DNA of 64,000 bases, taken from NCBI RefSeq assembly GCF_003323715.1, contig NZ_QOIN01000057.1:1-64000 (forward strand), written 5' to 3'. Numbering within the stretch: position 1 is the first letter of the stretch; every line of letters starts with the position of its first letter. The notes below the pieces were generated by a model. That model was not told where the DNA came from, searched no databases, and saw only the letters and a program-made list of their open reading frames with translations. A program made the translations under genes and the position numbers. The DNA is from Streptomyces diacarni (GTDB lineage: Bacteria; Actinomycetota; Actinomycetes; Streptomycetales; Streptomycetaceae). Shown one piece after another: positions 16,903 through 27,931 of this stretch.

Positions 16903-17775
16903 TACCTCAGTGGAGTACGCGGCTTTTCTTCCGTCCTCCCGCGCCCCCGTGCCGGCCCGCTGATCGGACTCCGCGCGCGCATATTCCTCTGGCGTCGGCC
17001 TCCGGCACCGCACACGCGACCGATGTCATTCGGCCAAATCTGCCCGTACGACCGACCACGACGGCCGCCGCCTTGACGCCCCGCGGCGCACTCGCGACGC
17101 AACACCGGACGGGCGGCGCACGGATGGCGGCGGGAGGGGCGGGTGCCGCCGGTGGTCACGCGCGACAGGCGTGCACGCCGAGCGCGCGGCACCGTCGCGT
17201 ACGCCGGGCACGGAGGCACAGGGGCACACGCATGTGGACCCCCGCTGAGCAGGCGACCGTCCCGGCAGGGAGCCGGAAGAAACTGCGCGGCTGTCCGAGC
17301 GGACGATGCGCCTGTCCGAGCAGTCGTTGCGCCTGTCCGAGCGGTGGAAGGGCGCTCCGCACCGCGGGCGAGAGGGCGAACGCAGCGGTCCAGAGGGCGA
17401 GCGCAGAGAGAGAAAGCCGGCACCGAGGCCGGACGGGGGGCGAGTCGGCCGGGCCGGAAGGCACATGCGCGCCTTCCGGCCCGGACCGCCGCCCGCGGGG
17501 AATGGGACGGCGGTGTTCCCCCAGCCCACTGATCCTGTGCAGCGGGCCGACCCACGCGGCTCCCATGGAACCGCTGACCTCGCAGGCAGGGCAGGCGCAT
17601 GGGCGGGCGCACGGCCACACGGCCGGTGCACGGGAAACGGCGCCACGAAACCACCCGGACCGGCGGTGGGCGCGTACGATTCCGGCCGCTCGACCGGGGG
17701 CACGCTGAGGGTGGCACGTGACCCCTGCACGTACACGCGTACGGAGAGAGATCCCGCCATCCCCCCTGACACCCC
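16903..17775. other. gene-free stretch (part of a 1.15-kb gap)
   Basis: From 16750 to 17899 no reading frame has recognisable homology or a good start. Long open frames exist on both strands but are Arg/Pro/Ala-rich shadows of high GC. The only structured elements I see are the direct repeats at 16869-16902, the CTGTCCGAGC triplet at 17291-17342 and the promoter at 17776-17804. A small RNA or a short peptide gene cannot be excluded. Confidence 0.4.
17291..17342. repeat. three CTGTCCGAGC copies at 21-bp spacing
   Basis: The 10-mer CTGTCCGAGC recurs exactly at 17291, 17312 and 17333, two helical turns apart, inside the gene-free gap. The bases between copies are partly conserved (TGCGC before copies 2 and 3). 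It could be an operator array or a decayed tandem repeat. Confidence 0.6.
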
Positions 17776-24856: not shown

Positions 24857-26242
24857 TCAGACGTTGACGCCCTTGTCGCGCAGCCACGTCAGCGGGTCCA
24901 CCGGGGCGTCGCCGTCCGGGCGGACCTCGACGTGCAGGTGCGGCCCCGAGGAGTTGCCGGTGGAGCCGACGCGTCCGATGACGTCGCCGGTGCTCACCTT
25001 GTCGCCTGCCGACTTGGTCATGGACGAGAGGTGGCAGAACCACAGTTCCGTGCCGTCGTCCGGTTCGAGGACGACGCGGTAGCCGTACGAGCCGGCCCAG
25101 CCGGCCTCCTTGACGGTGCCGGTGTGGATCGCCTTGACGGGCGTGCCGTTGGGGGCGGCGAAGTCCTGGCCTGTGTGGTCGTTCTGCCATCTGCCGCCGG
25201 ACTGGCCGAAGCCGGCACTCAGCTGGTAGGAGGCGACCGGCGCGACATAGCTGCGGGCGAGCTTGGCCCGGCGTTCGGCCGCCGCCTTGGCCTTCGCCTC
25301 GGCGGCCTTCGCCTCCGCGGCCGCGCGCCGGCGTTCGTCGTGGGCCTCGGCTCGCGCGCGCTCCTCGGCGGCGGCCCGCTTCGCGGCCTGCTCCGCGGCG
25401 GCGCTCGCGGCCTGGCGTGCCGCGTCCTCGCGGGCTTGTGCGTCCGTCGCGGAGTGGTGCCGCTCGGCCTGCGCGAGGATGCGGGCCCGGAGTGCCTCGC
25501 CGGCGCCGCCGCCCGTGTCGGCCGCGTCGGCCGCGTCGGCTCCGTGTGCCGCCTGGGCGCCGTCCGTTCGCTGGGCACCGTCTGTGCCGTCCGCGTCGTC
25601 GGAGACGAACGCTCCGAGGCCGGGGATGTCCTCGGCGTCGGGCAGGTGGCCGGTCAGGTCCCGCGCGGTGTCGGCGGCGGCGCCGAGGTCGGGTACGGAT
25701 ATGGAGCCGGGGTCCTTGTCGTGTGCCGTGGCCATGCCGCCCGCGCCCACGGCGGCGATCATGCCGACGCCGAGAACGGCCCCGCCGCGCGCCACACCGC
25801 CGGTCCGCTGCCGGGCGACCCGGTGCTTGCCGCGCAGTGAGCGGGTGGCCTCCTCGGTGGGGTTCCACTCCTCGGTGCGGATCCCCTCGTCCTGCGGGCC
25901 GATCCCGTCGGAGGACTCGCCCGCGCCGGCCTTGGACTCGCCGTAGGGATGCTCAGTGCCGTGCGGTTGCGCAGCGCCGTGCGGGCCCGGAGCGCCGTGC
26001 GGATACGGAGCACCGTACGGATACGGAGCACCATGCGGATGCGCGCCGCCGTACGGGAGCGGGCCCCCGTACGGCTGAGGACCGCCGTTCGGCTGCGGGC
26101 CGCCGTACGGCTGCGGGCCACCGTACGGCTGCGGGCCGCCGTGAGGGGCCGGCGCGGGGGTGGGAACGGGGGAGCCGACGGTGCCGGGCTGCGGGCCGTA
26201 CCCGACGGCCTCGGGGGCAGGGCCCTGGGATGTGGACGCCAC
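24857..26242 (-). CDS. M23-family cell-wall endopeptidase, membrane anchored
   Basis: A 461-residue protein. Residues 1-80 are a Gly/Pro/Tyr/His-rich tail with GGPQPYGGPQP repeats. A single membrane helix lies near residues 148-170, then an Ala/Arg/Glu coiled coil at about 240-335, then a LytM/M23 zinc peptidase domain at about 345-461. Zinc ligands are visible in HTGQDF and HLH (GPHLHVEV). It should cut peptidoglycan cross-bridges outside the membrane. Expression is predicted to be set by the c-di-AMP riboswitch in its 5' leader. The GTG start at 26242 has GGAG 10 nt upstream. Confidence 0.9.
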   Translation of the reverse strand: MASTSQGPAPEAVGYGPQPGTVGSPVPTPAPAPHGGPQPYGGPQPYGGPQPNGGPQPYGGPLPYGGAHPHGAPYPYGAPYPHGAPGPHGAAQPHGTEHPYGESKAGAGESSDGIGPQDEGIRTEEWNPTEEATRSLRGKHRVARQRTGGVARGGAVLGVGMIAAVGAGGMATAHDKDPGSISVPDLGAAADTARDLTGHLPDAEDIPGLGAFVSDDADGTDGAQRTDGAQAAHGADAADAADTGGGAGEALRARILAQAERHHSATDAQAREDAARQAASAAAEQAAKRAAAEERARAEAHDERRRAAAEAKAAEAKAKAAAERRAKLARSYVAPVASYQLSAGFGQSGGRWQNDHTGQDFAAPNGTPVKAIHTGTVKEAGWAGSYGYRVVLEPDDGTELWFCHLSSMTKSAGDKVSTGDVIGRVGSTGNSSGPHLHVEVRPDGDAPVDPLTWLRDKGVNV

Positions 26243-26261
26243 GGTGGGCGCTCTCCTTTCC

Positions 26262-26450
26262 TTCCTTCTCGCCTACCGGGTTAGCTGACGGGTTCGGAGC
26301 AGGAAGGTCTCCTACGGGCGTCCCGTGCGGGGCGCCCGATTCACCCCGTCCTTCCCGACATGCTGACGAGAAGGGGTGGTTCCCCGGTTCCCGCGGGGCC
26401 TGGCCGGTGAGTTGGGCCGGCTGGTGCCCCGTGTGCGGGATTCGGCGTCG
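26262..26450 (-). ncRNA. cyclic-di-AMP (ydaO/yuaA) riboswitch
   Basis: The minus-strand leader of the M23 gene contains the ydaO signature blocks in order: GGGAACCGGGGAACCACC (about 26391-26374), GGGGTGAATC (26347-26338), a GC hairpin (26336-26315), CCGAACCCGTCAGCTAAC (26297-26280) and GGTAGGCGAGAAGGAAG ending at 26261. These match the actinobacterial class found before rpf and NlpC/M23 peptidase genes. In characterised cases c-di-AMP binding turns expression off. No covariance search was run. The aptamer ends about 20 nt before the start codon. Confidence 0.88.
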
Positions 26451-26569
26451 GCGTACGGTGCCGTCTTCCGTGACGACAGTGACGACCGTGCCGCGTTATC
26501 GGACGGTAATAGAACAGCACCCGTGTTTCCAAGCCGTTCCCCACAATTGCCGCTCCCCGTGGGGCGGGA

Positions 26570-27931
26570 TTACGTGCTCCGTCGGGTCTCGTGGGCGACA
26601 GCCAGCAGCGCCATGTCGTCGACCGCCTCGCCGCCCGTGTGGTCGGCGACGTCGATGAGGATGGTTTCCAGCAGTTCCTCGGGGTCGGCGAAGTAGCTGC
26701 GGGACAGCCGTCCGGCGGGGTCGTAGAACACGCCGTCGGCGTTGCGGGCCTCGGACAGGCCGTCGGTGTAGAGGAGGAGTTGGCTGCCCGGCGGGAAGGG
26801 CACCTCGTCGATCTCGTCGGGCCACACGCCCAGCTCCGTCATGCCGAGCGGGAGCGCGGGTTCGTCCGGTTCCAGGAGCGTCGTGCGGCCCTGGTGGAGC
26901 AGGACGGGGCCGGGGTGGCCGCGGTTGACGAGGCGCAGTACGGGGCCGGATGCGGCGTTCTGCGGGGCTGTTCCCTGCGGCGTGCCGGAGTCGCCCGGAG
27001 GGGGCGGGTGGGTGGGGATCTCCACGAGTACCGCGGTGGTGAAGCCCTCGAACCGCGCGGTGCCCAGTTGCCGGCGTCCTTCCCGCTGGAGGGCGCGGTC
27101 GAGGCGGGCCGCGACGTCGGCGAGTGTCTCTTCCCGTTCGGCCGCCTCGCGGAAGGCGCCCACCACGATGACGACGGCCTCGACCGCGCCGAGCCCTTTG
27201 CCGCGTACGTCGCCGAGGAGCAGCCGTACGCCGTACGGGGTCTCCTCGACGGCGTAGAAGTCGCCACCGATGCGGGCGTCCGTCTGTGCGGCGCGGTAGC
27301 GGGTGGCGAACACCAGACCGCCCGTACGGGTGGGCGGCGTGGGCAGGACCGCGAGCTGTACGGCCTCGGCGACGACACGGGCGGAGGCCAACTGCTCGCC
27401 GCTGCGACGCAGCACGTAGTTGACGCCCACGGCGAGCGCGGAGACGGTCGCGATGGTGATGGAACGGGCCTCGGGTTCGATGTCGGGGCCTACCTCGTCG
27501 TGCAGCCAGGTCAGCAGGACGACGGTGCCGGAGGAGGCGACACCGGCGACGACGGTGGCGCGGAACGACAGCAGGGCGGCCGCGGCCAGTGGCGTGGCGG
27601 CGAAAGGTGCCGAGATGGTCACGTTCGGCGGCGTGGCCAGTTCCAGGACGAGTCCCAGGGCGAACAGCGCGGCCGGGAGCAGCCGCGCCAGGCGCCGCAG
27701 CCGCCCCACGCCGCCCTGGTACCCGTCCGCCGGTGCCGCCGCCGCGCTCTCGTCCTCCCAGCTCCGTCTCCGGCCCGTTCCTCGACTCGTCCGTCCGCCT
27801 GTCCGTCTCTCCTGCACGCTCTCAATCTGGCCCGCCTGCGGGCGCCGGGCCACTCGGGCGTGGTCGGGTCGGGTGACTGGGGATGACTGTCCGCGCGCGG
27901 CGTCCGGGAGCGGTAGCACGGGCCCGGCCAT
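26570..27931 (-). CDS. membrane-anchored SpoIIE-type PP2C phosphatase
   Basis: A 453-residue protein. An Arg-rich N-terminus is followed by about four hydrophobic segments at residues 75-170 (LLPAALFALGLVLELA; AAALLSFRATVVAGVASSGTVVLL). A SpoIIE domain occupies residues 215-453 with GGDFYAVEE, LGDVRGKG, LLLYTDGLSEAR and DDMALLAV metal-site motifs. It should dephosphorylate STAS anti-anti-sigma proteins; its input domain is membrane-embedded. The start is uncertain: ATG 27931 or GTG 27817, neither with a convincing Shine-Dalgarno site. There is no sigma or STAS gene next to it. Confidence 0.85.
   Translation of the reverse strand: MAGPVLPLPDAARGQSSPVTRPDHARVARRPQAGQIESVQERRTGGRTSRGTGRRRSWEDESAAAAPADGYQGGVGRLRRLARLLPAALFALGLVLELATPPNVTISAPFAATPLAAAALLSFRATVVAGVASSGTVVLLTWLHDEVGPDIEPEARSITIATVSALAVGVNYVLRRSGEQLASARVVAEAVQLAVLPTPPTRTGGLVFATRYRAAQTDARIGGDFYAVEETPYGVRLLLGDVRGKGLGAVEAVVIVVGAFREAAEREETLADVAARLDRALQREGRRQLGTARFEGFTTAVLVEIPTHPPPPGDSGTPQGTAPQNAASGPVLRLVNRGHPGPVLLHQGRTTLLEPDEPALPLGMTELGVWPDEIDEVPFPPGSQLLLYTDGLSEARNADGVFYDPAGRLSRSYFADPEELLETILIDVADHTGGEAVDDMALLAVAHETRRST

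Follow-up and report, generated by a model that had tools for sequence, protein, structure and literature searches.

The window analysed here (64,000 nucleotides of Streptomyces diacarni, contig NZ_QOIN01000057.1) holds on its minus strand a gene for an M23 peptidase, with a GTG start codon at 26242, and ahead of it a leader in which a putative promoter, a two-stem hairpin (P0), a c-di-AMP (ydaO-class) aptamer and a Shine-Dalgarno sequence follow one another (Table 1). Directly upstream on the same strand is a SpoIIE-type phosphatase gene (26570-27931), and a SpoIIE-type coding sequence seemingly precedes the M23 leader in several relatives too.

Table 1. Features of the M23 locus, in window coordinates (aa, residues of the M23 protein; SD, Shine-Dalgarno)
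Feature	Position	Strand	Basis or remark
Putative promoter, TTGGAA (26532-26527), 15 nt, TATTAC (26511-26506)	26506..26532	-	Conserved upstream of orthologs
P0, two-stem hairpin between promoter and aptamer	26451..26501	-	RNAalifold, 56 distinct sequences
c-di-AMP (ydaO) aptamer including pseudoknot strand	26260..26447	-	RF00379; 5' end corrected via orthologs
P6 hairpin, loop with pseudoknot strand CCUUCCU (26307-26301)	26296..26315	-	Rfam alignment
3' pseudoknot strand AGGAAGG	26260..26266	-	7 bp with 26307-26301, -9.5 kcal/mol as isolated duplex
Shine-Dalgarno GAAAGGAG	26253..26260	-	10 nt before GTG; anti-SD duplex -13.4 kcal/mol
Possible start-codon hairpin H2, GCGCC (26251-26247) [CACCGU] GGCGU (26240-26236)	26236..26251	-	-7.2 kcal/mol
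M23 peptidase, 461 aa, predicted type II membrane protein	24857..26242	-	PF01551 at aa 355-450, E 3e-29
N-terminal P/G/Y/H-rich segment, aa 17-105	25928..26194	-	18-nt tandem repeats, Tandem Repeats Finder
Transmembrane segment, aa 155-173	25724..25780	-	Peak of the hydropathy profile; highly conserved among orthologs
M23 catalytic domain, aa 355-450, with H356, D360, H404, H435, H437	24893..25180	-	Pfam, homologs, alignment

The first-pass annotation had named an M23 endopeptidase as the controlled gene, and the PF01551 match bears this out; the zinc ligands (H356, D360, H404 and HLH 435-437) are intact, at positions homologous to those of solved M23 enzymes. From its N terminus the protein runs through a conserved MAS start, the repeat segment, a conserved EEWNPTEEATRSLRGKHRV, the transmembrane helix and an Ala-rich region to the M23 domain. 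The long disordered tail that had also been described exists as a long low-complexity segment, but it lies at the N terminus (residues 17-105), before the transmembrane helix, and in the predicted topology is probably cytoplasmic. It is specific to the lineage, being unconserved and mostly missing in aligned orthologs (343-436 aa).

Covariance models were searched on both strands of the window (cmscan). RF00379 (c-di-AMP, ydaO) matched the minus strand at 26415-26256 with 70.9 bits (E 2e-14) against a gathering score of 38 bits, and the first-pass assignment to the ydaO class thus held; minus-strand sequence contains all four conserved blocks that it quoted, in the same order. The only other Rfam matches in the window, on either strand, were the Streptomyces sRNA Scr4115 (17448-17557 minus, 80.3 bits) and one tRNA. 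The core blocks GGGAACC, GGGGUGAAUC, CCGAACCCGUCAGCUAACC and GGC are all present in the aptamer. In relatives CGCCGAATCCC opens the aptamer and P1, and comparison with orthologs places the window copy at 26447-26437. Next comes the P2 loop, enlarged by about 40 nt and closing with GCGGGAACCGGGG; the alignment made by Rfam begins inside this enlargement, and P1 and P2 are seated too far in as a result. Its 5' boundary at 26415 was dropped for 26447, and the first-pass span of 26262-26450 proved nearer the true extent of the aptamer than the Rfam match. The P1 strands, CGCC (26447-26444) and GGCG (26273-26270), are fully complementary. On its sequence, the window element is a genuine c-di-AMP-class riboswitch, ordinary in kind and on a known type of target.

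Matches to RF00379 were found somewhere in 120 of 121 Streptomyces genomes, usually in 3-8 copies. The 7.66-Mb genome that contains the window has three, the others standing before a smaller second M23 protein (L001) and before a protein with LysM and SLT transglycosylase domains (L003). It also encodes one diadenylate cyclase domain (DisA_N/DAC), so c-di-AMP is expected to exist there. In published work, six to seven Streptomyces wall hydrolases have ydaO leaders and rpfA behaves as OFF (PMC10117811, PMC11481543, PMC8079986); in Corynebacterium glutamicum, nlpC carries the same riboswitch class, also in the OFF direction, with repression at the level of translation (PMC9960051). The first-pass statement that the class controls actinobacterial wall hydrolases agrees with these four reports.

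Only 27 nt separate the end of P1 (26270) from the GTG, and they hold both the 3' pseudoknot strand and the Shine-Dalgarno sequence: 5' to 3' after P1 come AGGAAGG, GAAAGGAG, AGCGCCCACC and GTG GCG, the pseudoknot strand and the Shine-Dalgarno sharing one base. There is no room for a terminator between aptamer and Shine-Dalgarno, and neither a terminator-like element nor an intrinsic terminator was found in 26150-26620. Leaders for comparison came from genomes that share their genus, order or class with the window genome, and from actinobacterial genomes chosen by name. Under one scoring rule, the P6 loops of 99 non-redundant leaders paired better with their own tails than with swapped tails (15.6 versus 13.05, sd 0.26, z 9.8); the preference was also seen in 159 leaders (15.57 versus 12.90, z 12.9) and in the 41 that passed the strictest redundancy cut (z 6.4). 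The paired sequences vary, being CCUUCCU:AGGAAGG in Streptomyces M23 leaders, CUCAC:GUGAG and UCUCC:GGAGA in other Streptomyces hydrolase leaders and GUCGU:ACGAC in Nocardioides. In 70% of the 99 leaders the Shine-Dalgarno shares bases with the pseudoknot strand, and in a further 27% the two are at most 8 nt apart; the distance from P1 to the start codon has a median of 25 nt and is at most 45 nt in 98% of leaders. The pseudoknot itself is among the established features of the class; the leader set adds its position near the ribosome site. This shared geometry of pseudoknot, Shine-Dalgarno and start codon favours occlusion of the ribosome site.

The c-di-AMP riboswitch of this locus probably acts on a membrane-anchored M23 endopeptidase, mainly as a translational OFF switch. 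At high c-di-AMP, P1 would close and the P6 loop would pair with AGGAAGG just past it; the resulting pseudoknot, set against the Shine-Dalgarno, would keep 30S subunits off. At low c-di-AMP the tract would open and the strong Shine-Dalgarno would come into use. We infer ligand binding by this copy, the OFF direction, the translational level, the role of the start hairpin and the physiological purpose. The first-pass annotation likewise expected the hydrolase to be off at high c-di-AMP; the coupling of wall opening to osmotic and K+ state that it proposed is a conjecture. Docking onto the ribosome site has already been proposed for the ydaO class: a review groups it with riboswitches of that kind (PMC10907184), and a translational model for S. 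coelicolor is quoted in PMC8079986. The leader geometry agrees with both and with C. glutamicum nlpC (PMC9960051), in contrast to the termination described for rpfA (PMC10117811). Besides the rpfA report, which makes transcriptional control possible, three points count against the OFF switch as drawn. With an overlap of one base only in the window, occlusion of the Shine-Dalgarno would be largely steric; plain secondary-structure prediction of the ligand-free state does not cleanly free the Shine-Dalgarno; and the switch has disappeared more than once from this locus in relatives (see below).

The same riboswitch could instead act on transcription, binding of c-di-AMP stopping RNA polymerase early by non-canonical termination as for rpfA. 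Premature termination of S. coelicolor rpfA with c-di-AMP in vitro is described in PMC10117811 and PMC9960051, and the rpfA transcript rises 5-fold in an S. venezuelae disA mutant (PMC10117811). The empty terminator search, the short distance from P1 to the start codon throughout the leader set and C. glutamicum transcript levels that do not respond to c-di-AMP (PMC9960051) all speak against such a mechanism, and we regard it as unlikely. An ON switch is a far weaker candidate. It would have the 3' strand of P1, GGCG (26273-26270), pair otherwise with CGCC (26250-26247) after the Shine-Dalgarno and loop the site out until ligand frees it; the two segments are indeed complementary and conserved in Streptomyces M23 leaders. 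In other actinobacteria, however, the arm after the Shine-Dalgarno (CCAC/GUGG, CCAAC/GUUGG) matches the start codon rather than P1. This antiswitch was rejected, its complementarity being lost where the arm differs; moreover, class members studied to date are described as OFF.

It is similarly hard to credit that the aptamer has decayed or become ligand-blind. Its Rfam score is below the 95-105 bits of many orthologs, it carries the large P2 and internal insertions, and the same locus is clearly decayed in leaders L387, L388 and L389. Yet the core blocks, the full P1, P6 and the pseudoknot pairing are all intact in the window, and much of the score gap arises because Rfam mis-seats the 5' end on the enlarged P2; a similar enlargement occurs in the intact orthologs L036, L037, L040 and L042.

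A further conserved motif surrounds the start codon. Among 56 distinct Streptomyces M23 leaders, CGCC at -7 to -4 is kept in 55-56 and GTGGCG in all 56, while positions -9, -8, -3 and -2 vary; the Ala codon 2 is always GCG there, although the gene prefers GCC overall (46 GCC, 28 GCG). Unrelated targets and families show comparable complements, for example GCCAC[CTCC]GTGGC (L122) and GCCAAC[CGC]GTTGGC (L177). Of 31 leaders with GCG as codon 2, 26 had such a complement, whereas its frequency at 179 matched pseudo-starts was 38% (Fisher p 1.7e-6); a gene-level background comparison comprised just 102 crudely called genes. When arms were exchanged between leaders whose second codon encodes Ala, no covariation was seen (z 0.0). 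A start-codon hairpin is plausible from the sequence pattern, but with enrichment set against that null swap result we did not accept it as a proven helix and treat it as hypothetical; it may serve as a second brake. A two-gate arrangement, in which the Shine-Dalgarno pseudoknot is joined by a conserved start-codon hairpin that constrains codon 2 at its synonymous third position, is a tentative and rather doubtful extension. Strong inverted repeats of another type than GCC/GGC span the start codon in four c-di-AMP leaders (L116, L141, L181 and L183), examples from this group being GGACAA[CGG]TTGTCC and GGACAT[CAACACAAT]ATGTCC.

Upstream of the aptamer, TTGGAA...TCTATTA(A/C)CGTTCGATAACGC is nearly invariant before Streptomyces M23 orthologs, including those that have no riboswitch, and transcription presumably starts at this putative promoter; a search with the sigma-70 consensus gave no match at 26506-26532. 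A TAACG-N5-TAACG direct repeat, present in most orthologs and degenerate in the window (26532-26493), is a possible response-regulator binding site. P0 consists of an inner stem (GUCGUC 26477-26472 / GACGGC 26465-26460) and an outer stem (ACGGU/ACCGU). One inner pair was seen as TA, TG, CG, GT and GC, while most others scarcely vary, and pairs were formed in 98.1% of cells versus at most 97.8% in shuffles, a small excess. P0 is retained even in leaders without a riboswitch.

Orthologs of the M23 protein were found in 81 genomes, and those without a nearby Rfam match were inspected; the closest protein relative (L035) is absent from riboswitch scoring since its contig ends before the leader. 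Nine genomes (leaders L376-L384, with proteins L390-L398), which form one clade with full support and count as one observation, have an intact promoter and P0 but no aptamer: directly after P0 come a short spacer, the Shine-Dalgarno GAGGAG and the gene, and the AGGAAGG tract has gone too. Codon 2 reads GCC in each of these genomes; with TGCC as the usual upstream arm, the putative start hairpin has lost its outer pair as well. In L387, and in the separate clade of L388 and L389, the CCGAACCCGUCAGCUAACC core has degenerated and a search with Rfam gave no match at E 0.1 to 0.5, while the promoter, P0, tail-pseudoknot strand, Shine-Dalgarno and start region are retained; judged by these remnants, they are apparently riboswitches in the process of loss. 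L385 and L386 also have no aptamer, and the start-codon complement is kept in L385 but not in L386, and presence of the motif thus does not follow that of the riboswitch in any simple way. In a tree of 45 proteins, the labelled rows can be explained by no fewer than two losses; the proteins of L385, L386 and L387 are unlabelled in it, and the count may be higher. Genomes that lack the switch at the M23 locus still have riboswitches elsewhere. Repeated loss shows that c-di-AMP control is not essential to the M23 gene.

New here are the corrected aptamer boundary, the argument from leader comparison in favour of ribosome-site occlusion and the recurrent disappearance of the switch from this locus, together with finer details, namely the conserved 5' hairpin and the CGCC...GUGGCG complement around the start codon. 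In the accessible literature, experiments on actinobacteria apparently cover only rpfA (Streptomyces) and nlpC (C. glutamicum), which conflict on the level of control. For the question of translation versus transcription, the varied pseudoknot pairs in the leader collection offer concrete compensatory mutants. Natural strains in which the aptamer has been lost, but not the promoter, the 5' hairpin or the gene, provide existing controls for testing how much c-di-AMP control of wall hydrolases contributes under osmotic stress.

Compared with the RF00379 class, the window element is alike in its covariance match, conserved blocks, loop-tail pseudoknot and position in the 5' leader of a wall hydrolase, and it differs in the enlarged P2, the extra conserved 5' hairpin, the lack of a terminator and the placing of the pseudoknot against the ribosome site. 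The leaders of rpfA and the other five to six hydrolases of S. coelicolor and S. venezuelae belong to the same class, serve the same category of gene and likewise occur several per genome; rpfA is reported to be controlled at transcription, and the target in the window is instead a membrane-anchored M23 enzyme. Translational control is reported for C. glutamicum nlpC, whose authors propose CTCC-GGAG pairing of the aptamer with the ribosome site (PMC9960051); the target there is an NlpC/P60 protein and the pairing was proposed from one sequence, whereas the present comparison supports it across 99 leaders with different pairs. The protein shares the HxxxD...HxH zinc-ligand pattern and catalytic-domain homology with LytM and lysostaphin (PDB chains), from which it differs by its cytoplasmic N terminus, as predicted, its single transmembrane helix and its Ala-rich coiled region.
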